NCBI GenBank assembly: GCA_017942105.1
Contig: JAGAVE010000019.1
Span: forward strand, 1-58,216
Source of the DNA: Clostridia bacterium
GTDB lineage: Bacteria; Bacillota; Clostridia; Oscillospirales; Acutalibacteraceae
Length of the DNA: 58,216 nucleotides
Direction: 5' to 3'
This document shows, one piece after another, positions 46,099 through 57,044 of this stretch. Both the position numbers and the translations under genes were made by a program. Below the pieces are notes generated by a model. The model searched no databases and was not told the DNA's origin. It saw only the letters and a list, made by a program, of their open reading frames with translations. The first letter of the stretch is position 1. The number at the start of each line of letters is the position of its first letter.

Positions 46099-46116
46099 AT
46101 TTTCAATATTTTTAAA

Positions 46117-46380
46117 AAGCGTTGAAGATATTAAGTCTTTTCAGGATTTTTTCAGAGAGCTGACGGTTGGTGGAAGTCAGTATTTGAGAGATAAGGCTGT
46201 CTCGTATCTGAGCTTGGTTCCCTAACCGTTACGACTGCATAAGGAACCACGGCAAGCACCGTTATCATGGCTTAGGATTTGGATGAATCCGAAGAGTGGC
46301 TGTTTTCAGCAATTTGGGTGGTACCACGGTAATTTGTTTATCGTCCCTGAAGCACAGATGTGTTTCAGGGATTTTTTTAT
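46117..46380 (+). promoter_or_regulatory. T-box leader, specifier read as CUC (Leu)
   Basis: Stem I closes with AAGC (46117-46120) / GCTT (46212-46215) and, past a kink-turn-like bulge, AGATA (46126-46130) / TATCT (46205-46209). The 5' side has the conserved AGAGAG and the distal GGTTGGTG hairpin (CTGAC / GTCAG). The specifier trinucleotide, one purine before the TATCT helix, is CTC (46201-46203). Stem III is GCTTG / CAAGC. The T-box sequence AATTTGGGTGGTACCACGG is at 46311-46329. The terminator is TCCCTGAAGCACA (46344-46356) / TGTGTTTCAGGGA (46359-46371) plus seven T. Uncharged tRNA-Leu should favour read-through into the LeuA-like and ligase genes. Confidence 0.9.
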
Positions 46381-46406: not shown

Positions 46407-47822
46407 ATGAGAAAGATTCATGTATCAGACATTACTTTGAGAGAATGCGCAGGTTCTGCAGAGCATTCGCTCAGCTTTAAAGAAAAAATCGAAATGGCTA
46501 AGCTTATGGATAAGCTTCATTTTAACAGCATCGAAATGCCTGAAATCAGAAATGTTTCAACAGATGTTCTTCTGATTAAAACAATCGCTTCTCTTATGAA
46601 GCATTCTGAGGTATGCGTTCCTGTAGGAACAGACGCACAAAGCGTTGAAACTGCCTGGAACAGCGTCAAAGCGGCTAAAAAGGCTTCGCTTAAGGTCAGT
46701 GTTCCCGTTTCTGCAGTGCAGATGGAGTATAAATGCTCAAAGAAGCCTCCTGTTGTCAAGGAAATGGCGGCATCTCTTATTGCTGAATGTAAGAAATACG
46801 CAGAAAATGTTGAGTTTTCGGCAGAGGATGCAATAAGAGCTGAAAAGGCGTTTCTTTATGATATAATTCGCACAGCAATTGAGGCGGGTGCAAACCGCAT
46901 TAATATATGCGATTCCGAAGGAACAATTATGCCCTCAGAAATGTATGATTTTGTAAAGGCTCTTTTTGAAGAGGTTCCTGAGATTAAGAAAGTAACCCTT
47001 TCAGTCGAGCTCAGTAATCAGCTCAATATGGCTGTTGCGTGCGCATTTTCAGCAATTTCTGCAGGCGCAGGGGAGATTAAAACAACGGTCGAAGGCTTCA
47101 GCTATCCCTCAATCGAGGATGTTATGAATGTTTTCAAGCTCCGCGGCGATTCAAATGGCATTTCAAGCAAAATTCGTACAACGGAGCTTTCAAGAGTTGT
47201 CAGCCAGATGAAGAGAATGGTTAACACAACAAAGAGCGAAAACTCACCGTTTGAAAATGGTGTTAACGATAATGCCGAGCCTCTCACTCTTGATAAGAAT
47301 GATGATATTTCAACAGTTATCAAGGCTGTTAAGAAGATTGGTTATGACCTTTCTGAAGAGGATAATTCAAAGGTTTATGAGGCGTTCAGACGAGTTGCGG
47401 CAAAGAAGGAATTCGTTGGCACGAAGGAGCTTGAGGCAATCATTGCTTCAACGGCACTTCAGGTACCTGCAACGTATACAATCGAAAGCTATGTTATCAA
47501 CAGTGGTAATGTTATCACAGCCACAGCTAACATCAGACTTAACAAAGACGGCGAGGCTGTAAGCGGTGTAAGTGTTGGTGATGGTCCGATTGACGCAGCT
47601 TTCCTTGCTATCGAACAGATCGTAGGCCATCATTATGAGCTTGACGATTTCCAGATCAAGTCAGTAACAGAGGGTCGCGAAGCAATGGGCTCAGCTCTTG
47701 TCAAGCTTCGTTCTTCAAGCGGTAAGCTCTATTCGGGCACAGGTATTTCAACAGATGTTATCGGCGCAAGCATCAGAGCTTATGTAAGCGCACTCAATAA
47801 AATCGCCTACGAGGAGGAATAA
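46407..47822 (+). CDS. LeuA-like protein (HMGL barrel plus LeuA dimer domain), metal motif lost
   Basis: ATG 46407 follows catatggaggattattatt; 471 residues. Residues 1-260 form an HMGL-type barrel like 2-isopropylmalate synthase (SDITLRECAG, LMDKLHFNSIEMPEI, INICDSEGTI), and about 350-471 an intact LeuA dimer/allosteric domain (GDGPIDAAFLAIEQI, STDVIGASIRAYVSALN). In active LeuA the first motif is TLRDGEQ and the metal ligands come from HCHND. Here they are TLRECAG and VELSNQ, so both metal His residues are missing. It may bind acetyl-CoA, an oxoacid or leucine without normal catalysis. It is under a Leu T-box and precedes the ligase fusion by 2 nt. Confidence 0.75.
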   Translation: MRKIHVSDITLRECAGSAEHSLSFKEKIEMAKLMDKLHFNSIEMPEIRNVSTDVLLIKTIASLMKHSEVCVPVGTDAQSVETAWNSVKAAKKASLKVSVPVSAVQMEYKCSKKPPVVKEMAASLIAECKKYAENVEFSAEDAIRAEKAFLYDIIRTAIEAGANRINICDSEGTIMPSEMYDFVKALFEEVPEIKKVTLSVELSNQLNMAVACAFSAISAGAGEIKTTVEGFSYPSIEDVMNVFKLRGDSNGISSKIRTTELSRVVSQMKRMVNTTKSENSPFENGVNDNAEPLTLDKNDDISTVIKAVKKIGYDLSEEDNSKVYEAFRRVAAKKEFVGTKELEAIIASTALQVPATYTIESYVINSGNVITATANIRLNKDGEAVSGVSVGDGPIDAAFLAIEQIVGHHYELDDFQIKSVTEGREAMGSALVKLRSSSGKLYSGTGISTDVIGASIRAYVSALNKIAYEEE

Positions 47823-47824
47823 AA

Positions 47825-50332
47825 GTGAATTTAGCTTTTTCAACAAAATTCCATAAAGCAGCGGGACTTGGCGATTTCCTTAAAATTGCCGAAGAGCTTC
47901 GCTATGACGGAATTGAAATTCACGATATAAAAGCAGATGCTTTTTCAGGTAAGGCTTCACCGTTCAGCCCTGATATGGCATCTGTTACAAAGCGTACTCT
48001 CATCAACGCAAAAAAGGCGATTGCCTGCATCGATGCAGACTGTAATATTGCAGATAAAGATAACGCCGAAGAGATAATGAAAAAATTTGAAACGGCAGTT
48101 TCGGTTGCAAGAAATATCAATGTTTCATATGTAAAGGTCTATGCACAGAGCGATGATGAAAACGCAGTTGATTATGTTAAGGGATTTATGTCTGATGTAA
48201 TCAGCCTTTGTGAGAAAAACAATGTTATAGTGCTTGTTGAAACAGCAGGAATTTATGCAGATACAGATAAGCTCTGCGATCTTCTTAATTTCTTTGCAAA
48301 CGACTATATCGGTGCAGATTGGAATATGTATGAGACCTTCTTCAAGGCGAAAGAGGATGCTGAGAAGACAATCAAAAACCTCGGTGCATATGTCAAGCTT
48401 GTTCATATGACGGATGCTGAGGAATACGGCAAGCACACTCTCATCGGTGAGGGTAAGCTTCCTGTTGAAGAAATGACGAATGCTCTTCGCTCAATCAATT
48501 ATGCAGGCTTTGTCTGTATTGAATGGAATCCCGAATGGATGAGTGAGATCGATGACCTTGAAATCATACTTACTCATTATGAGAGCTTTATGGAAGCTAT
48601 GGGCAGCACAAAGAGCAATAAAAAGTATTTTTATAACAAAACAAGAACAGGCAAGTTTGTATGGGAAAAGGAAGAGCTTATTGAAAAGACTTTTTCTCAG
48701 GTGCTTGACACAATGGTTGAAGAGTTTCCGGATCAGCTTGCTTTCAAATACACTACACTTGACTATACAAGAACATATTCAGAGTTCCGCGATGATGTTG
48801 ATAACTTTGCACGCGCACTTATTGCTATGGGCGTAAAAGCAGGTACTCATGTTTCGGTATGGGCAACAAATGTACCCCAGTGGTACATCGCTTTCTGGGC
48901 AGCAACGAAAATAGGTGCTGTTCTCGTAACGGTAAATACGGCCTATAAAATCCATGAGGCAGAGTATCTTTTAAGGCAGTCTGATACACATACGCTCATT
49001 ATGGTCAAGGGTTATAGAGACTCCCATTATGATGAGATTATAGCTGAGCTTTGCCCCGAGCTTGAAAATATGAAGTCGGGTGAGCAGCTTCACGCTAAGA
49101 GACTTCCTTTCCTTCGCAATGTTATCACTGTCGGCTATGAGCAGAAGGGTTGTATGACCTGGAATGAAGCTCTCGATAAGGCTTCTCAGGTGCCTGTAGA
49201 GGAAGTTTACCGTATGGCATCTCTTGTCAAAAAAGACGATGTATGCAATATGCAGTATACTTCGGGTACAACAGGATTCCCGAAAGGAGTTATGCTTACT
49301 CACTATAATGTTGTTAATAACGGTAAGTGTATCGGCGACAGAATGGATCTCTCAACGGCAGACAGAATGATGATTCAGGTTCCTATGTTCCATTGCTTCG
49401 GAATGGTTCTTGCTATGACTGCAACAATGACTCACGGTGGTACGGTTCTTCCTTTGCCGTATTTCTCACCGAAGTCATCGCTTGCTTGTGTAAATAACGA
49501 GAGGATAACCGCTTTCCACGGTGTTCCGACTATGTTTATTGCGATGCTTCAGCATCCTGACTTTGAGAAGACAGACTTCTCATATGTCAGAACGGGTATT
49601 ATGGCAGGTTCACCTTGCCCGATTGCAAAGATGCGCGAAGTTGTTGATAAGATGAATATGAAAGAGATAACTATCGTTTACGGTCAGACAGAAGCTTCTC
49701 CGGGATGCACGATGTCCAGTACGGATGATCCTCTTGAGGTTCGTGTTGCAACAGTAGGCAGAGCATTGCCTAAGATTGAATGTAAGGTTATCGACCCCGA
49801 GACTGGCCTTGAATGTCCCGATGATGTCAACGGTGAATTCGTTGCCAGGGGATATAACATTATGAAGGGTTATTACAAGATGCCTAAGGCTACTGCTGAG
49901 GCTATCGATAAGGATGGTTGGCTTCATACGGGTGACCTTGCTTGCAGAACTCCCGAGGGATATTTCAAAATTACGGGCAGACTTAAGGATATGATCATCC
50001 GCGGCGGTGAAAATATCTATCCTAAGGAAATTGAAGAGTTTATCTATACCCACGATAAGGTCAAGGATGTTCAGGTTATCGGTGTTCCTGATGAAGGACT
50101 GGGTGAGGAGATTATGGCTTGCATCATCCTTCACGAGGGCGAAACAATGACTGAGGCAGAGATGAAGGAATATGTTCTTTCTCATATGGCTAAGCATAAG
50201 GTGCCGAAGTACATTGACTTTGTCAAGGAATTCCCGATGAATGCTGCGGGAAAGATTCTTAAGTATAAGATGCGCGAAATGGCGATTGAAAAGTATGGTC
50301 TGCAGAAGGCAAACTCAGTTGTTACTGCGTGA
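47825..50332 (+). CDS. TIM-barrel isomerase-like domain fused to AMP-forming acyl-CoA synthetase
   Basis: GTG 47825 follows gaggaggaataaaa; 835 residues. Residues 1-255 are a xylose-isomerase-like TIM barrel with a plausible metal tetrad in VLVETAG (Glu near 138), GADWNMYE (Asp near 163), KLVHMTD (His near 193) and CIEWNPEW (Glu near 232). Residues 275-835 are a complete acyl-CoA synthetase: YTSGTTGFPKG (near 478), YGQTEASPG (near 618), WLHTGDLA (near 698), GRLKDMIIRGGENIYP (near 715) and the catalytic lysine in AAGKILKYK (near 808). It should activate a short or branched acid to its CoA thioester. I know of no family with this N-terminal fusion. It is the second gene of the Leu T-box operon. 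Confidence 0.8.
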   Translation: MNLAFSTKFHKAAGLGDFLKIAEELRYDGIEIHDIKADAFSGKASPFSPDMASVTKRTLINAKKAIACIDADCNIADKDNAEEIMKKFETAVSVARNINVSYVKVYAQSDDENAVDYVKGFMSDVISLCEKNNVIVLVETAGIYADTDKLCDLLNFFANDYIGADWNMYETFFKAKEDAEKTIKNLGAYVKLVHMTDAEEYGKHTLIGEGKLPVEEMTNALRSINYAGFVCIEWNPEWMSEIDDLEIILTHYESFMEAMGSTKSNKKYFYNKTRTGKFVWEKEELIEKTFSQVLDTMVEEFPDQLAFKYTTLDYTRTYSEFRDDVDNFARALIAMGVKAGTHVSVWATNVPQWYIAFWAATKIGAVLVTVNTAYKIHEAEYLLRQSDTHTLIMVKGYRDSHYDEIIAELCPELENMKSGEQLHAKRLPFLRNVITVGYEQKGCMTWNEALDKASQVPVEEVYRMASLVKKDDVCNMQYTSGTTGFPKGVMLTHYNVVNNGKCIGDRMDLSTADRMMIQVPMFHCFGMVLAMTATMTHGGTVLPLPYFSPKSSLACVNNERITAFHGVPTMFIAMLQHPDFEKTDFSYVRTGIMAGSPCPIAKMREVVDKMNMKEITIVYGQTEASPGCTMSSTDDPLEVRVATVGRALPKIECKVIDPETGLECPDDVNGEFVARGYNIMKGYYKMPKATAEAIDKDGWLHTGDLACRTPEGYFKITGRLKDMIIRGGENIYPKEIEEFIYTHDKVKDVQVIGVPDEGLGEEIMACIILHEGETMTEAEMKEYVLSHMAKHKVPKYIDFVKEFPMNAAGKILKYKMREMAIEKYGLQKANSVVTA

Positions 50333-50370: not shown

Positions 50371-50399
50371 TTGCATATCAAAAACGATGCGATTATAAT
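50371..50399 (+). promoter_or_regulatory. Promoter of the Ile T-box operon
   Basis: TTGCAT (50371-50376), 17-nt spacer, perfect TATAAT (50394-50399). Confidence 0.8.
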
Positions 50400-50425
50400 A
50401 TATGCATTAAGAAATTTATATTAAA

Positions 50426-50690
50426 GGCTGTGACGAAGACGGTTGCGTTGCGTAGCTTTAAGAGAGTCGGCGGTTGGTGTGAGCCGATAGCTTACGGGCG
50501 AAGAAAACCTATCACTTCTGAGCCGAAGAGATGAAAGCTTTATGCAAATAGTTTCTTCCGTATAACTACGTCAGTGTTAAGGGATTGTCAGATCCTTAGA
50601 GTGGCACGGAGCAATAGCCGAGTGCAATTTGAGTGGTACCGCGGTTTTATCCGTCTCAAAGTTTTCAAGCTTTGGGACGGTTTTATTTTT
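50426..50690 (+). promoter_or_regulatory. T-box leader, specifier read as AUC (Ile)
   Basis: Stem I closes with GGCT (50426-50429) / AGCC (50521-50524) and, past a kink-turn-like GTGA/TGA bulge, GAAG (50435-50438) / CTTC (50515-50518). The AGAGAG motif and the GGTTGGTG distal hairpin (TCGGC / GCCGA) are present. The specifier before A50514 and the CTTC helix is ATC (50511-50513). The T-box sequence AATTTGAGTGGTACCGCGG is at 50626-50644. The terminator is CCGTCTCAAAG (50651-50661) / CTTTGGGACGG (50670-50680) followed by TTTTATTTTT. It should turn on the ligase and oxidoreductase genes when tRNA-Ile is uncharged. Confidence 0.9.
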
Positions 50691-50721
50691 ATCAGAATTT
50701 ACCGTTGAAGGAGGTAATTTT

Positions 50722-52989
50722 ATGGAAAACAATACGACCAATAAACTCTTCGAGGTGGCTCAGCGAATTAAGGAAATGCGTGATATTTGCGGCTTTACCG
50801 TTGAAGATATGGCTGAAAAGACCGAAGTTTCGGTTGAACAATATAATATTTACGAGGCAGGAAAAATAGACCTTCCTTTCTCATTTGTTCATAAATGTGC
50901 GCTTGCTTTTGATATCGGACTTACGGATCTTCTTGAAGGTCACAGTGCCGTACTTACCTCATATACGGTAACAAGAAAAGGCAAGGGTCAGACAACGGCG
51001 AGCGAAAACGGCATTGAAATCAAAAACCTCGCTCCGAAATTCAGAAAAAGGCTTTCAGATCCGTATATGGTTCGTTATGAGTATTCTGCCGAGCTTGAAA
51101 ATAAACCGATTCATACAACAACTCACGCAGGTCAGGAGTTTGACCTCGTTATCAGCGGTAAGCTTAAGGTCAGAATCGGCAACCATGAGGAGGTTCTCGA
51201 AGAGGGCGACAGCATCTATTATAACAGCTCAACTCCTCACGGTATGATTGCTGTTGACGGCAGAGATTGCGTTTTCCTTGCAATGATTATGGCAACAGAT
51301 GAACCTGTTGAAAAGATCGTTCACGACAGAGCGGTTAAGGGAACAAAGACTTCAGGCAGCCTCGTTTGCGAGAAATTTATTGATGCAACTGAGGACGAAA
51401 ACGGTAACCTCGTTGCAATCGATTTCAATAATGAGGATACTTTCAATTTTGCATTTGATATCGTTGATAATATCGGCAGAAAATCGCCCGATAAGCGTGC
51501 AATGATTCATCTTGATAAGGATAAGAACGAAAGAATCTTTACTTATAAGGATATCAAGGAGCATTCAAGCCAGGCGGCAAACTATTTCAAATCGCTCGGT
51601 ATCAAGAAAGGCGATACGGTAATGCTTGTTATGAAGCGTCACTATCAGTTCTGGTTTGCAATCCTCGGTCTTCACAAGATAGGCGCGGTTGTTATTCCGG
51701 CAACAAATCTCCTCGTTCAGCACGACTTTGAATACAGATTTAAGGCTGCGAATGTTTCTGCAATTATCTGCACTGCTGACGGAGACACTGCAAGGCAGGC
51801 AGAGCTTGCTGATGAAGTTACAGGCACTCTTAAAAACAAGATTATCGTCAACGGAACAAGAGAAGGTTGGCACAGCTTCGATGAAGAATACGGTCTTTTC
51901 AGCCGCCGTTACAGACGCGATGAAAATTCACCGTGTGGCGATGACCCGATGCTTATGTTCTTCACATCAGGAACAACGGGCTATCCGAAAATCGCAACAC
52001 ACAGCTATAAATATCCTCTCGGTCACTATATTACCGCTAAATATTGGCATTGCGTAAGCAAGGACGGCCTCCACCTTACAATTTCTGAAACAGGTTGGGG
52101 TAAGGCTCTTTGGGGTAAGCTCTACGGTCAGTGGCTCTGCGAAGGTTCAATCTTTGTTTATGACTTTGACCGCTTTGATGCGGCGGATATCCTTCCGCTG
52201 TTTGCAAAATATCAGATTACAACCTTCTGCGCACCTCCGACGATGTACAGAATGCTTATTAAGCAGGATATCAGCAAATACGATTTAAGCTCAATCAAGC
52301 ACGCAACAGTCGCAGGTGAGGCTCTTAACCCGGAGGTATTCAAACAGTTCTATAATGCAACGGGTCTTACACTTATGGAAGGTTTCGGTCAGACTGAGAC
52401 AACTCTTTCAATTGCAAACCTTACGGGTATGAATCCGAAACCGGGTTCAATGGGTAAACCCGTTCCGCTTTACGATATTCAGATTCTTCGTCCGGACGGA
52501 ACGCAAGCAGACCTTGGTGAAACAGGTGAAATCTGTATCAAGACAAGTGATAAGGTTCCCTGCGGTATCTTCCTCGGTTATTATCTGAATGAGGAGAAAA
52601 CCAAGGATGTATGGTATGACGGTTATTATCATACAGGTGATACTGCTTGGGCAGACGAGGATGGCTATTTCTGGTATGTCGGCAGAATCGATGATGTTAT
52701 CAAGTCATCGGGCTACCGTATCGGACCTTTCGAAATCGAAAATGTTATTATGGAGCTTCCGTATGTTCTTGAATGCGGTGTTTCAGCTGCACCTGATGAA
52801 ATCAGAGGTCAGGTAGTTAAGGCAAGCATCGTTCTGACAAAGGGAACAGAGCCTTCAGACGAGCTCAAAAAGGAAATCCAGAAATATGTTAAGGAGCATA
52901 CTGCACCTTACAAGTATCCGAGAATAGTCGAGTTTAGAACAGAGCTTCCCAAGACTATCAGCGGAAAAATCATAAGAAATCAGCTTTAA
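50722..52989 (+). CDS. HTH-cupin regulator domain fused to medium-chain-type acyl-CoA synthetase
   Basis: ATG 50722 follows gaaggaggtaatttt; 755 residues. Residues 10-70 are an XRE HTH (VAQRIKEMRDICGFTVEDMA, VSVEQYNIYEAGK). Residues 110-185 are a cupin (HAGQEFDLVISGKLKVRIG, EEGDSIYYNSSTPHG). Residues 225-755 are an AMP-forming synthetase of the ACSM/MACS group: FFTSGTTGYPKIATHS (near 415), EGFGQTETT (near 555), YHTGDTAWADEDGYFWYVGR (near 637) and the catalytic lysine in TISGKIIRNQL at the C-terminus. MACS enzymes act on short and branched acids. The Ile T-box and the downstream oxidoreductase suggest 2-methylbutyrate as substrate. Regulator-ligase fusion is unusual. Confidence 0.82.
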   Translation: MENNTTNKLFEVAQRIKEMRDICGFTVEDMAEKTEVSVEQYNIYEAGKIDLPFSFVHKCALAFDIGLTDLLEGHSAVLTSYTVTRKGKGQTTASENGIEIKNLAPKFRKRLSDPYMVRYEYSAELENKPIHTTTHAGQEFDLVISGKLKVRIGNHEEVLEEGDSIYYNSSTPHGMIAVDGRDCVFLAMIMATDEPVEKIVHDRAVKGTKTSGSLVCEKFIDATEDENGNLVAIDFNNEDTFNFAFDIVDNIGRKSPDKRAMIHLDKDKNERIFTYKDIKEHSSQAANYFKSLGIKKGDTVMLVMKRHYQFWFAILGLHKIGAVVIPATNLLVQHDFEYRFKAANVSAIICTADGDTARQAELADEVTGTLKNKIIVNGTREGWHSFDEEYGLFSRRYRRDENSPCGDDPMLMFFTSGTTGYPKIATHSYKYPLGHYITAKYWHCVSKDGLHLTISETGWGKALWGKLYGQWLCEGSIFVYDFDRFDAADILPLFAKYQITTFCAPPTMYRMLIKQDISKYDLSSIKHATVAGEALNPEVFKQFYNATGLTLMEGFGQTETTLSIANLTGMNPKPGSMGKPVPLYDIQILRPDGTQADLGETGEICIKTSDKVPCGIFLGYYLNEEKTKDVWYDGYYHTGDTAWADEDGYFWYVGRIDDVIKSSGYRIGPFEIENVIMELPYVLECGVSAAPDEIRGQVVKASIVLTKGTEPSDELKKEIQKYVKEHTAPYKYPRIVEFRTELPKTISGKIIRNQL

Positions 52990-53002
52990 AAGAGGTGATA
53001 CA

Positions 53003-53665
53003 ATGGAATCAAAGCGTATAACACTTTTTGCAGGCCATTACGGAAGCGGAAAGACGAATATTGCCGTCAACTATGCCTTAAGGTTAAAAAAAGACGGAAA
53101 ACCCGTCGTGATTGCAGACCTTGATATAGTCAATCCTTATTTCAGAACAAAGGACAGCGAGAAAGAGCTCAGCGAAGCAGGAATCAGACTTATTTCTTCC
53201 GAGTATGCAAGTTCAAATGTTGACCTTCCCGCATTGCCGCAGGATGTTTATTCCATTGTTGATAATAATACGGAATATGCAGTTATGGACATCGGTGGTG
53301 ACGACAGAGGTGCATATGCCCTCGGTCGTTACGCTGACAGCATCAAAAAAGAAAATAATTACGAGATGTTTATGGTAATCAATATGTACAGACCTCTTAC
53401 GAGGGATGTGGAAAGCACCCTTGAGGTTATGGCCGAGATTGAAGCTGCCTGTTCGATGAAATTTACTGCAATAGTTAATAATTCAAATATAGGCGAGGAG
53501 ACGACGGAACAGGATGTTCTTGATTCTCTCAGCTATGCCCAAAAAGTTTCTGAGGCAACAGGTCTTCCGATAAGGTTGACAACTGTGGATGAAAAATTGT
53601 ATAATATTCTGTACGGCGTAGTGGATAATCTTATGCCACTCAAATTACAGGAAAAGATAAACTAA
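53003..53665 (+). CDS. P-loop ATPase (MinD/CobQ-like) in the oxidoreductase operon
   Basis: The 220-residue protein has Walker A GHYGSGKTN (about residues 10-18), IADLDIVNPYFRTKD (about 37-51, a switch-I-like segment) and YAVMDIGGDDRGA (about 92-104, Walker B). It resembles the SIMIBI class of MinD/ParA/CobQ-type ATPases but lacks the deviant Walker lysine of MinD. Its place between the ligase and the ferredoxin suggests a role in assembly or regulation of the iron-sulfur oxidoreductase. No direct evidence for this. The SD aagaggtgata precedes the ATG. Confidence 0.65.
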   Translation: MESKRITLFAGHYGSGKTNIAVNYALRLKKDGKPVVIADLDIVNPYFRTKDSEKELSEAGIRLISSEYASSNVDLPALPQDVYSIVDNNTEYAVMDIGGDDRGAYALGRYADSIKKENNYEMFMVINMYRPLTRDVESTLEVMAEIEAACSMKFTAIVNNSNIGEETTEQDVLDSLSYAQKVSEATGLPIRLTTVDEKLYNILYGVVDNLMPLKLQEKIN

Positions 53666-53679
53666 GTGAGGTAAAAGCT

Positions 53680-53886
53680 ATGGCAAAAGTAACATTTAAA
53701 ACAGACCTTTGCAAGGGCTGCAGTCTTTGCGTAGGTGCTTGTCCGAAAGGTATCGTTAAACTGTCAGAAACAAAGCTTAACGCAAAGGGTCATCATCCTG
53801 CAGAGGTGACGGAGCCCGAAAAGTGCATCGGTTGCGCATTCTGTGCAACAATGTGCCCTGATTGTGTAATTACGGTAGAGAGGTGA
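53680..53886 (+). CDS. 2x[4Fe-4S] ferredoxin subunit of 2-oxoacid:ferredoxin oxidoreductase
   Basis: The 68-residue protein has two cluster motifs, CKGCSLCVGACPKG (about residues 12-25) and CIGCAFCATMCPDC (about 47-60). It matches the delta subunit (VorD/KorD) of archaeal and clostridial oxoacid oxidoreductases and is placed right before the alpha subunit gene, as in many vor/kor operons. It carries electrons between the TPP/Fe-S core and external ferredoxin. SD gtgaggtaaaagct. Confidence 0.88.
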   Translation: MAKVTFKTDLCKGCSLCVGACPKGIVKLSETKLNAKGHHPAEVTEPEKCIGCAFCATMCPDCVITVER

Positions 53887-53891
53887 AAATA

Positions 53892-54959
53892 ATGTCAGAA
53901 AAGGTACTTATGAAAGGCAACGAGGCTATTGCCGAAGCGGCAATTCAGGCAGGTTGTCATCATTATTTCGGCTATCCCATAACTCCGCAGACTGAAGTTG
54001 CGGCTTATATGGCAAAGCGTATGCCGAAAATCGGCGGAACATTCCTTCAGGCTGAAAGTGAAGTTTCTGCTATCAATATGGTAATTGGTGTTGCATCAAC
54101 AGGTAAAAGAGTTATGACATCATCTTCAAGCCCGGGAGTTTCTCTTAAGGCAGAGGGTATCTCATACCTTGCAGGCTGTGATCTTCCTGCTGTTGTTGTC
54201 AATGTTCAGAGAGGCGGCCCGGGTCTCGGCGGTATCCAGCCTTCTCAGTCAGACTATTTCCAGTCAACAAAGGGTGGCGGACACGGTGACTACAGAAACA
54301 TCGTTCTTGCTCCTGCTTCAGTTCAGGAAATGGCAAGCCTTACGGTCAAGGCTTTTGACCTTGCTGATAAGTACAGTATGGTTTCAATGATTCTTGCTGA
54401 CGGTACAATGGGTCAGATGATGGAACCCGTTTCTCTTGATATCGGCGAGGTTAAAACATATGATAAACCGTGGGCTCTTACGGGAACGAAGTGCGAAAGA
54501 GAGCATAATATTGTAAATTCACTCTATCTTAAGCCCGAAGAGCTTGAAGTTAAGAACTTCGAAAGATACGAGAAATATAAGGCAATCGAAGAAAACGAAG
54601 TTATGTACGAGGAGTATCTTATGGACGATGCAGAGGTCTGCGTTGTTGCATTTGGTATTACATCACGAGTTGCAAAGAACGCAATCAATGAAGCTCGTGC
54701 AAACGGCGTTAAGGTTGGTATGATCAGACCTATCACACTCTGGCCCTTCCCGAAGAAGGTTCTTGCTGATGCGGCTGATAAGTGCAAGGCATTTATCTGC
54801 GTTGAGATGAATATGGGTCAGATGATCGAGGATGTTGAGCTTGCAATCCGTTGCAAGAAACCCGTTTACCTCTGCAACCGTGTCGGTGGTATGATCCCGT
54901 CACCTGAAGAGGTACTTGCAAAAATCAATGAAGTTAATGAGAACGGAGGTGCGTTCTGA
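53892..54959 (+). CDS. 2-oxoacid:ferredoxin oxidoreductase, alpha subunit (VOR/KOR type)
   Basis: The start MSEKVLMKGNEAI follows gagaggtgaaaata; 355 residues. It has the conserved N-terminal GCHHYFGYPITPQTEVAAYM (about residues 21-40), ESEVSAINMVIGVASTGKRV (about 56-75), SSSSPGVSLKAEGISYLAG (about 78-96) and RGGPGLGGIQPSQSDY (about 106-121), typical of KorA/VorB. The enzyme interconverts a branched or 2-oxo acid with an acyl-CoA and CO2 using ferredoxin. The ATG lies 3 nt after the ferredoxin stop. Valine-type or 2-oxoglutarate-type specificity cannot be decided from sequence alone. Confidence 0.9.
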   Translation: MSEKVLMKGNEAIAEAAIQAGCHHYFGYPITPQTEVAAYMAKRMPKIGGTFLQAESEVSAINMVIGVASTGKRVMTSSSSPGVSLKAEGISYLAGCDLPAVVVNVQRGGPGLGGIQPSQSDYFQSTKGGGHGDYRNIVLAPASVQEMASLTVKAFDLADKYSMVSMILADGTMGQMMEPVSLDIGEVKTYDKPWALTGTKCEREHNIVNSLYLKPEELEVKNFERYEKYKAIEENEVMYEEYLMDDAEVCVVAFGITSRVAKNAINEARANGVKVGMIRPITLWPFPKKVLADAADKCKAFICVEMNMGQMIEDVELAIRCKKPVYLCNRVGGMIPSPEEVLAKINEVNENGGAF

Positions 54960-55714
54960 TGTCAGTAGTATTTGAAAAGCCGAAGTCACTCACAGATGCA
55001 GTGCTTCACTATTGTCCGGGTTGTACACACGGTATTATCCATCGCCTTGTAGCTGAGGTTATCGATGAGCTCGGCATTGAGGGCGATACAATCGGTGTTG
55101 CTCCCGTTGGTTGTGCTGTTATGGCATATAACTATTTTACTTGCGACTTTGTTCAGGCGGCGCACGGCCGTGCACCTGCTGTTGCAACAGGCGTTAAGAG
55201 AAGCGACCCGTCAAAGATTGTTTTTACATATCAGGGAGACGGTGACCTTGCAGCTATCGGTACTGCAGAAACAGTACACTCAGCAGCAAGAAGAGAAAAT
55301 ATCACTGTTATCTTCGTAAATAATGCAATTTACGGTATGACAGGCGGTCAGATGGCTCCGACAACTCTTCCCGGTCAGGTTACTCAGACCTCACCTTACG
55401 GCAGAGATGTTAATACAGTAGGCTATCCCGTAAAGGTTTGTGAGCTTCTTTCAAATGTTGACGGTGCCGCTTATATTGAGCGTGTAGCAGTAAACAATGT
55501 CAAGAACATCAAAAACGCAAAGAAGGCTATCAAGAAGGCTTTCCAGAATCAGATGGAAGGCAAGGGTTTCTCACTCATCGAGGTTGTTTCAACTTGCCCG
55601 ACTAACTGGGGTATGACTCCCGAGAAGGCTCTCGAGTGGGTAGATGAGAAGATGATTCCGTATTATCCTCTCGGCGTTTATAAAGATATCTATGCAGAGG
55701 AGGAAGCAAAATGA
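54959..55714 (+). CDS. 2-oxoacid:ferredoxin oxidoreductase, beta subunit (TPP-binding)
   Basis: The 251-residue protein has [12 protein letters not shown] (about residues 19-30), [14 protein letters not shown] (about 68-81) and the TPP motif [19 protein letters not shown]-type segment starting GDGDLAA (about 95) and ending [18 protein letters not shown] (about 121-138). This is the catalytic thiamine-diphosphate subunit that carries out decarboxylation or carboxylation of the 2-oxo acid. Its start overlaps the alpha-subunit stop by one base. Confidence 0.92.
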
Positions 55715-56253
55715 GTAAGACATGCAAATTGCTTTTTGCAGGTTTCGGCGGACAGGGTATCCTCTTCGCAGGAAAATTCCTTGCATACAAAGGCCTTATC
55801 GAAGATAAGCAGGTAAGCTGGCTTCCGTCATACGGTCCCGAGATGCGTGGCGGTACAGCTAACTGTTCAGTTATCATCAGCGACGAGCCGATCGGTTCTC
55901 CGATTGTTGACGCTCCTGATGTTCTTATCGCAATGAACCTTCCTTCACTTGAAAAGTATGAGAATGCAGTTGTAAGCGGCGGTAAGATTTTTGTTGACTC
56001 AACTCTTATTGATAAGAAGGTTGAGAGAGACGATGTTGATGTTTATTATATCCCTGCAACTCAGATGGCATATGATAACAATATCAAGACTCTTGCAAAT
56101 ATGATTATCACGGGTAAGGTTCTCAAGGAAGTTGAAGGCTTCTCTCTTGATAATGTTGATGCAGCTCTCAAAAAGGTTGTTTCTGCCCGTAAGATTGAGC
56201 TTCTCGGCGTTAACGAAACAGCTCTTAAATCAGGCTACGATTACGCTGAATAA
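55711..56253 (+). CDS. 2-oxoacid:ferredoxin oxidoreductase, gamma subunit
   Basis: The 180-residue protein begins [21 protein letters not shown] (about residues 5-24) and has [21 protein letters not shown] (about 42-61), the gamma-domain signature that binds the CoA end of the substrate. It completes the four-subunit enzyme. It overlaps the beta-subunit gene by 4 nt and ends 2 nt before the nitrilase gene. Confidence 0.92.
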
Positions 56254-56255
56254 TT

Positions 56256-57044
56256 ATGAGAGTCAGTTGTATTCAGCTTGATATGGATTTCTGCGATGTT
56301 GAAAAAAACTATCTCAGAGCAGAGGAACTGATATACAATACTGTGAAAAATGAAAAAACGGATGTAGTCCTGCTCCCGGAAACCTGGAGCACGGGCTACT
56401 ATCCGAAAAATGATTTAATGTCTTTTTGTGAACCCGCCGGCGGAAGAATCAAAAAGACTTTTTCACTTATTGCGAAAGATCTGGGTGTGAACATCGTCGC
56501 AGGCAGCATAGCCAACAACAAAAACGGCATGGCTTATAATACTTCCTATGTTTTTGACAGGGTAGGGGATGTCGTTGCCGAATATGATAAAATTCATCTT
56601 TTTACTCCTATGAATGAAGATAATTTCTTCGGACACGGTGAAAAAACGGCTGTTTTCGAACTTGACGGGCATAAATGCGCAGTTATTATCTGCTACGACA
56701 TCCGTTTTCCTGAGCTTGCAAGAAAGCTTGCTCTTGAGGGCGCAGAAATGCTTTTTGTTGTTTCTCAATGGCCGTCTCAGCGCATTGAGCATCTTAAAAT
56801 TCTGTCATCTGCAAGAGCGATAGAAAATCAGATGTTTGTTGCCGTGTGCAATTCATGCGGAAAAGCAGGCGAAACAACCTTCGGAGGAAATTCAAGGATA
56901 GTTGACCCGTGGGGGAATGTCCTTGCCTTCGCAGGTGAAAAAGAAGAAATAATTACGGCAGACTGCGATTTCAGCACCATAAATCAAATCAGAAGCTCTA
57001 TCAATATCTTTAACGACAGAAAACCTGAACTATATAGCACTTAA
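56256..57044 (+). CDS. Nitrilase-superfamily amidase (omega-amidase-like)
   Basis: The 262-residue protein has the Glu-Lys-Cys triad of carbon-nitrogen hydrolases: LLPETWSTGYY (Glu near 43), YDKIHLF (Lys near 112) and IICYDIRFPELAR (Cys near 147). The pattern PETWSTGYYP and the DIRFPELAR loop match omega-amidase/YafV proteins, which hydrolyse 2-oxo acid amides formed by glutamine transaminases. Such an amidase would fit next to oxoacid synthesis that uses glutamine as amino donor. It starts 2 nt after the gamma subunit and is probably the last gene of the operon. Confidence 0.82.
   Translation: MRVSCIQLDMDFCDVEKNYLRAEELIYNTVKNEKTDVVLLPETWSTGYYPKNDLMSFCEPAGGRIKKTFSLIAKDLGVNIVAGSIANNKNGMAYNTSYVFDRVGDVVAEYDKIHLFTPMNEDNFFGHGEKTAVFELDGHKCAVIICYDIRFPELARKLALEGAEMLFVVSQWPSQRIEHLKILSSARAIENQMFVAVCNSCGKAGETTFGGNSRIVDPWGNVLAFAGEKEEIITADCDFSTINQIRSSINIFNDRKPELYST

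Follow-up and report, generated by a model that had tools for sequence, protein, structure and literature searches.

T-box leader RNAs induce the genes behind them upon starvation for their cognate amino acid. Such control of branched-chain amino acid biosynthesis has been reported in Clostridia and Bacillales (PMC2494555; citations by PMC number refer to excerpts of the articles throughout), and in Geobacter a leucine T-box stands over an ordinary leuA (PMC2700814). Rumen anaerobes, in turn, make isoleucine from 2-methylbutyrate (Robinson and Allison 1969) and valine from isobutyrate (1971), as cited in PMC7356843 and PMC2812497. Two enzymes that activate such acids have been described: the medium-chain acyl-CoA synthetase (MACS) of Methanosarcina acetivorans (Protein Data Bank, PDB, entry 3ETC), which prefers 2-methylbutyrate (PMC10455477), and MbcS of S. 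aureus, which uses 2-methylbutyrate and isobutyrate with Km values under 10 uM and isovalerate with a Km over 500 uM (PMC10026030). Here we describe an operon on a contig of 58,216 nucleotides, referred to as the window, from a Clostridia bacterium of the family Acutalibacteraceae (contig JAGAVE010000019.1, our C120, of assembly GCA_017942105.1; the genome measures 2.30 Mb in 126 contigs and is 79.7% complete). Preceded by an isoleucine T-box, this operon very probably serves to make isoleucine from short branched-chain fatty acids, with enzymes that are shared with valine and probably leucine synthesis.

The RNA family (RF00230) and the logic of the leader are those of known branched-chain amino acid T-boxes, whereas the genes under control here encode acid-activating ligases and a 2-oxoacid:ferredoxin oxidoreductase; the main texts of two T-box surveys, PMC2494555 and PMC3766115, contain none of the terms 'acyl-CoA', 'ferredoxin oxidoreductase' or 'ketoisovalerate'. 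The overall conversion would be the same as in the rumen anaerobes, whereas the excerpts of PMC7356843 and PMC2812497 deal with rumen physiology or a methanogen genome. Our searches of the open PMC literature brought up no account of T-boxes that govern these genes. A first-pass annotation of the window, made from the letters alone, did not recognise an isoleucine T-box over such genes as described. The physiology of the route is long known, and its T-box genetic unit is apparently undescribed.

Rfam finds two T-boxes in the window, at 46113-46351 and 50421-50661, both above the gathering score. The second, on the + strand like all features below, aligns to the full RF00230 model (positions 1-219) at E 3.9e-21, its 100.9 bits exceeding the gathering score of 93, and the alignment contains the T-box sequence GUGGUACCGCG. 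Its specifier is AUC (isoleucine; 50511..50513), followed by an A, as given by the Rfam alignment column and by stem-I pairing, in which GAAG/CUUC sets the specifier position. A specifier for another amino acid was rejected, as alignment and pairing both give AUC. The first-pass annotation had seen a complete leader with an AUC specifier and had proposed a run against RF00230 with modelling of the specifier loop; both confirm the isoleucine codon, and only the start of the unit, placed at 50426, came five bases late. An intrinsic terminator overlaps the T-box antiterminator (50651..50680; a 13-pair stem, then a T run) and folds with -18.3 kcal/mol (z -7.7), which none of 200 shuffled sequences equalled. 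The antiterminator piece folded alone is no better than shuffled sequences (z -0.75), as expected if the antiterminator is stabilised by tRNA. Upstream, a probable -10 element TATAAT (50394..50399), read from the sequence, lies 21 bases before the leader and is separated by a 17-base spacer from a weak -35 element, TTGCAT; the pair is absent from the list of a consensus scan, the -35 element matching the consensus at only 3 of 6 positions.

Behind the leader follows the gene set that the first-pass annotation had named, borne out by Pfam and NCBIfam matches and by the open reading frames (ORFs). The first gene encodes a fusion of helix-turn-helix (HTH), cupin and acyl-CoA ligase domains (50722..52989; Pfam HTH_19, Cupin_2 and AMP-binding), of the Ile type described below, with Gly460; we place its start at the ATG at 50722, the listed ORF beginning at a TTG within the leader. 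It is followed by a CbiA/ParA-like P-loop ATPase (53003..53665; PF01656) and by four oxidoreductase subunits, namely VorD, the two-cluster ferredoxin subunit (53680..53886; Fer4_7 and ORF), VorB, the alpha subunit (53892..54959; NF005507 VorB, 547.4 bits, cut-off 399), VorA, the thiamine pyrophosphate-binding beta subunit (54959..55714; TPP_enzyme_C, below all listed NCBIfam cut-offs), and VorC, the gamma subunit (55711..56253; POR domain; TIGR02175, 69.5 bits, cut-off 81.1). The last gene, a CN_hydrolase amidase (56256..57044; PF00795), had been called omega-amidase-like. This holds at the level of the fold, but the protein reaches no NCBIfam amidase cut-off (best 128.4 bits against 500), and no model named omega-amidase is among those listed for it.

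T-box, codon, terminator and genes are read directly from the DNA, as are the two ligase clades and the gene cluster described below. From these we infer the substrates, the carboxylating direction, the transamination and the control by tRNA in vivo. Upon isoleucine shortage, uncharged tRNA-Ile would pair with both specifier (AUC) and antiterminator, and transcription would continue through the operon. The HTH-cupin-ligase would then convert 2-methylbutyrate with ATP to 2-methylbutyryl-CoA, VorDBAC would carboxylate this with reduced ferredoxin to 3-methyl-2-oxopentanoate, and a branched-chain aminotransferase, located outside the window operon but in the cluster of many relatives, would yield isoleucine. 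A paralogous ligase under a valine T-box would act likewise on isobutyrate towards valine, and a leucine T-box would control a third, different ligase module.

We compared specifiers and ligases across relatives in two partly overlapping sets. A search of 150 genomes of the same family gave ligase matches in 91, and the family set consists of stretches around 49 of these matches, from 40 genomes other than the source (at least 59% identity, and either nearly complete in length or truncated at the end of a contig); ligases without HTH-cupin domains, less identical ones, ones with stops and fragments (a long one, in G064, at 59%) were left out of the T-box reading. The named set holds 80 loci out of at least 578 confirmed candidates, partly from the same genomes (e.g. 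G098), in samples from cattle, buffalo, goat, sheep, deer, yak, horse and rabbit. Each of the 62 family-set ligase ORFs with 600 or more residues is preceded by a T-box, 40 reading Ile and 22 Val, and in the tree with the two ligases of the source genome added (41 Ile, 23 Val; 64 rows) the label changes once, compared to a mean of 19.0 for shuffled labels. The named set contains 133 ligases (74 Ile, 36 Val, 23 uncalled), and in its tree, with the same two added, one branch with an SH-aLRT (Shimodaira-Hasegawa-like approximate likelihood ratio test) value of 100 separates Ile (75 plus 6 uncalled) from Val (37 plus 17 uncalled). Both trees are quick builds without bootstrap, and in both the separation has no exception among the labelled rows, 112 in the named and 64 in the family tree, the two source ligases included in each. 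If 'no call' is treated as a separate label, the named tree requires 7 changes for the Ile label and 8 changes for the Val label.

The first specifier callers favoured branched-chain codons. A codon-blind caller applied to the named set read 62 AUC and 27 GUA with none discordant, that is, all 89 decided cases agree, while 22 of 111 stayed undecided. One ligase leader (L059) and one Leu leader (L063) of the family set were called by eye, and the labels of L142 and L162 in the named set, where the leader match is split, were set by hand. No leucine codon was called on HTH-cupin ligases, neither in the family set nor, by the codon-blind caller, in the named set. The source genome itself holds 11 T-box matches with E values up to 0.001, of which 6 exceed the gathering score. 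Away from the ligases, the same reading assigns Phe, Val, Tyr, Thr and Ile to the leaders of pheS, valS, tyrS, thrS and ileS, respectively, Cys to that of cysE-cysS and Met to that of an enzyme of Cys/Met metabolism (genes named by eye; the tally omits L011, a T-box of 52.6 bits over an Asp-tRNA synthetase). Since the expected amino acids thus stand over known genes, the reading rule works in this genome. It also holds the valine counterpart, a T-box with the codon GUA (84.2 bits, below the gathering score) over an HTH-cupin ligase on contig C59 that is 64% identical to the window ligase and has no cluster gene after it. The Leu and Ile parts adjoin in the window, the Val part lies elsewhere, and IlvE is outside the operon.

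The ligases themselves point to branched short-chain acids. The best NCBIfam match of the window ligase is MbcS (NF047394), at 438.7 bits about half of the equivalog cut-off of 850, and the nearest PDB structure to the ligase part, searched with the HTH-cupin N-terminus excluded, is 3ETC with 613 bits, the next one scoring 368. In 3ETC, an archaeal enzyme, Trp259 occupies the pocket place of the acetyl-CoA synthetase (Acs) tryptophan (PMC10455477). The matching W442, and G556 at the position of Acs Trp414, are present in 135 of 135 ligases, which is the alternate-Trp arrangement of MACS of the 3ETC kind; this mapping is by alignment and assumes a one-residue offset between the chain index and the numbering of PMC10455477. 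Within the ligase part, only one column, on the pocket side, separates the clades when 85% is required in each of them. This is the residue that follows Gly-Trp (GW), Gly460 in the window ligase. It is Gly in 75 of 75 Ile-type and Ala in 37 of 37 Val-type ligases of the named set with the two source ligases, and Gly in 39 of 40 and Ala in 22 of 22 in the family set without them. At this position 3ETC has Gly, like the Ile type, an acetyl-CoA synthetase of the PDB has Val and a 4-hydroxybutyrate-CoA ligase has Ala. We take the Val of acetyl-CoA synthetase to line the acetate pocket; a larger side chain (Ala) for the smaller acid would be the predicted direction, and the window ligase would activate a branched short-chain acid, 2-methylbutyrate. 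The poor use of isovalerate by MbcS fits a ligase family that bears only Ile and Val codons.

The only Ile T-box ligase of the family set with Ala after GW is L062, in the 1.1-Mb genome G022; as no second ligase of this kind was matched there, L062 may act on both acids. Over their whole length the clades differ at 11 columns at the 85% threshold, 10 of which fall within residues 9-115 on the HTH-cupin side, as if DNA or ligand recognition by the fused regulator domains also differed.

In relatives, many of them from the guts of ruminants, the elements are usually arranged as Ile T-box, first ligase, Val T-box, second ligase, ATPase, VorD, VorB, VorA, VorC and IlvE, and this whole cluster often lies near a Leu T-box module. 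Tandem ligases occur in 53 of the 80 named loci, with a Val T-box called in 36 of these 53. In 50 named loci 6.5 kb or more of downstream sequence is available; among these, VorB homologs are found in 48, an ATPase homolog between ligase and VorD in 47, the complete ATPase-VorDBAC set in 45 and IlvE homologs in 37, presence being scored by phmmer against one reference per gene; the amidase has homologs in 9 of the 80 loci. Two IlvE proteins, those of L052 (490.5 bits, cut-off 307) and L061, were run against the branched-chain aminotransferase model, and both pass it. The serial Ile and Val T-boxes on one strand before shared Vor genes and IlvE (e.g. L052 and L047) could be a combined gate. As to the ATPase, it perhaps serves activation or cluster assembly of the oxidoreductase.

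This layout bears on whether the branched acyl-CoA might instead be used to make branched fatty acids or plasmalogens, the T-box then signalling a lack of precursors. The nearest NCBIfam model, MbcS, has its shown role in branched-chain fatty acid synthesis (PMC10026030), yet in many relatives IlvE and Vor belong to the same unit, the separate Ile and Val specifiers of the two ligase clades better match amino acid products, and none of the window operon genes is a fatty acid synthesis gene; we consider a lipid role very unlikely.

Synthesis of isoleucine from preformed acids could stand in for the classical pathway, and genomes with these ligases more often miss ilvC. Among the 41 genomes that have full-length ligases, 14 hold an ilvC over the cut-off, and among the 109 others 72 do (missing in 27 and 37, respectively; Fisher p 0.0007), and in 8 of 28 genomes with Vor-linked ligases and 78 of 122 others (p 0.0012), with the reservation that these tests ignore kinship and that the genome sets were tallied by hand. 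Genome G098 (3 contigs, 99% complete), for instance, carries the cluster (L047) and has no ilvC, ilvD or leuB over the cut-off, its leuA matches being the LeuA-like gene described below and one of 24 bits. The same counts weigh on a catabolic role, in which VorDBAC would oxidise branched 2-oxo acids to acyl-CoA and gain reduced ferredoxin, as in amino acid fermentation. Enzymes of the 2-ketoisovalerate:ferredoxin oxidoreductase (VOR) type are reversible and known in peptide fermenters, and ilvC and ilvD are present in the source genome. However, T-box induction on starvation argues against degradation, as it would set such an operon against itself; moreover, the ligases belong to an AMP-forming, acid-activating family, and ilvC is the more often absent where they occur. 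Hence, we give a catabolic function little credence.

Regarding the oxidoreductase, VorA scores 118.1 bits against the cut-off of 261.9 of TIGR02177 and VorD 32.9 against 60.05 of TIGR02179, both pyruvate/ketoisovalerate models, and the best models are 2-oxoglutarate ones for the beta and delta subunits and a general 2-oxoacid one for gamma, all below the cut-off, while the alpha subunit fails the 2-oxoglutarate and indolepyruvate models. The enzyme thus appears VOR-like through its alpha subunit only. That it acts on 2-oxoglutarate, pyruvate or aryl-pyruvate and stands under an Ile T-box by accident, as those sub-cut-off matches might suggest, is scarcely credible given that alpha passes VorB and that VorB homologs are kept with the ligases in 48 of 50 loci with room downstream. 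The first-pass annotation had named an enzyme set specific for aromatic or 2-oxoglutarate substrates as an outcome speaking against its proposal; the sequence gives no sign of such specificity, the alpha subunit passing the VorB model (547 against 399 bits). The catabolic, the purely lipid and the aryl or 2-oxoglutarate roles were all considered and set aside.

Several observations nevertheless weigh against synthesis of isoleucine from branched acids by this operon. Of the 133 named-set ligases, 23 have no T-box call: 17 belong to the Val clade, where many of them take the second place in a tandem, and 6 belong to the Ile clade; four of the latter (L125, L151, L165 and L171) have no T-box match in about 0.9 kb or more upstream. 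For several family-set ligases, among them every member of the most divergent Ile group, the stretch analysed contains no Vor genes. The window operon itself lacks an aminotransferase and a second ligase, its ligase fails the MbcS cut-off and hence is not filed as MbcS, and VorA, VorC and VorD pass no NCBIfam cut-off. Finally, 14 of 41 ligase genomes keep ilvC. Among them is the source genome, with ilvC and ilvD on two contigs, C74 (L091) and C10 (L092), ilvB beside one ilvC/ilvD pair (tested there only), two leuB over the cut-off and another full-length LeuA-type match on C124. L091 and L092 are diverged copies, judged from one ilvD pair, and could be paralogs or mixed strains.

An essential role in the source organism was rejected, as ilvC, ilvD, leuB and a second full-length LeuA-type match are present. 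The organism can probably make isoleucine by the usual route, and because ilvC and ilvD are kept, the operon would there probably be an extra, facultative and supplementary one. Hence, where the first-pass annotation saw an isoleucine route, the gene set fits but the route is not the sole one. Its broader claim of an Ile-controlled unit leading from acid to amino acid gains support from the aminotransferase in relatives, the paralog under a Val T-box, the co-segregation of specifier and clade and the frequent absence of ilvC, but was drawn too narrowly, as the system includes at least isoleucine and valine.

Gut bacteria of ruminants and horses carry a conserved cluster that a shortage of isoleucine, valine or leucine apparently induces and that seems made to convert short branched fatty acids taken up from the environment into these amino acids. 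A route known for decades from physiology would thereby acquire defined genes, a logic of regulation and a signature for prediction: the specifier predicts the substrate of each ligase, and T-box codons could tell which gut bacteria may depend on branched acids, and for which amino acid.

The Leu module next door begins with the other T-box of the window (46113..46351; RF00230, 109.7 bits), whose specifier CUC at 46201-46203 is supported by stem-I pairing, followed by a LeuA-like protein (46407..47822; HMGL-like and LeuA_dimer domains; aligned to 3RMJ and 3EEG). It shares the HMGL fold and LeuA_dimer domain with 2-isopropylmalate synthase but lacks the catalytic Asp and both His, REC and ELS replacing RDG and HxH. 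We take the RDG aspartate and the HxH metal ligands to be the catalytic residues of isopropylmalate synthase. Of 44 aligned members (ORFs of more than 430 residues and more than 200 bits), only 1 retains the Asp and 1 the first His, and none retains the second His, while both the window protein and all 8 relatives scanned have an intact allosteric domain, PF08502. As a hypothesis, the LeuA-like protein may be a leucine-sensing pseudoenzyme for its partner ligase. A wider picture, for which we see about even chances, is a three-branch system in which each T-box would select its own ligase (Ile for 2-methylbutyrate, Val for isobutyrate, Leu probably for isovalerate) to supply a shared oxidoreductase and aminotransferase, with serial T-boxes in many genomes, Gly or Ala tuning the pocket to C5 or C4 acids, the dead isopropylmalate synthase exerting feedback control on the Leu-branch ligase as its leucine-sensing subunit, and the classical pathways replaced in some gut bacteria.

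The LeuA-like gene occurs in 38 of the 80 named loci, with a T-box directly upstream in 30; by a caller favouring branched-chain codons these leaders read CUG in 13 cases, CUC in 11 and another codon or none in 6. A search of 24 genomes gave no LeuA over the cut-off of the bacterial model, which 5 of 14 control genomes also miss. Full-length LeuA-type matches were found in 6 of the 24, all ilvC-positive (the source genome G000, G003, G040, G108, G133 and G148), and five ilvC-negative genomes (G027, G066, G073, G075 and G094) have a second, partial LeuA-type match of 99-123 bits. The last gene of the module encodes a TIM-barrel and AMP-forming acyl-CoA ligase fusion (47825..50332; AP_endonuc_2, AMP-binding and AMP-binding_C), in which a xylose-isomerase-like TIM barrel is joined to the ligase partner of the LeuA-like gene; its substrate, at a guess, would be isovalerate.

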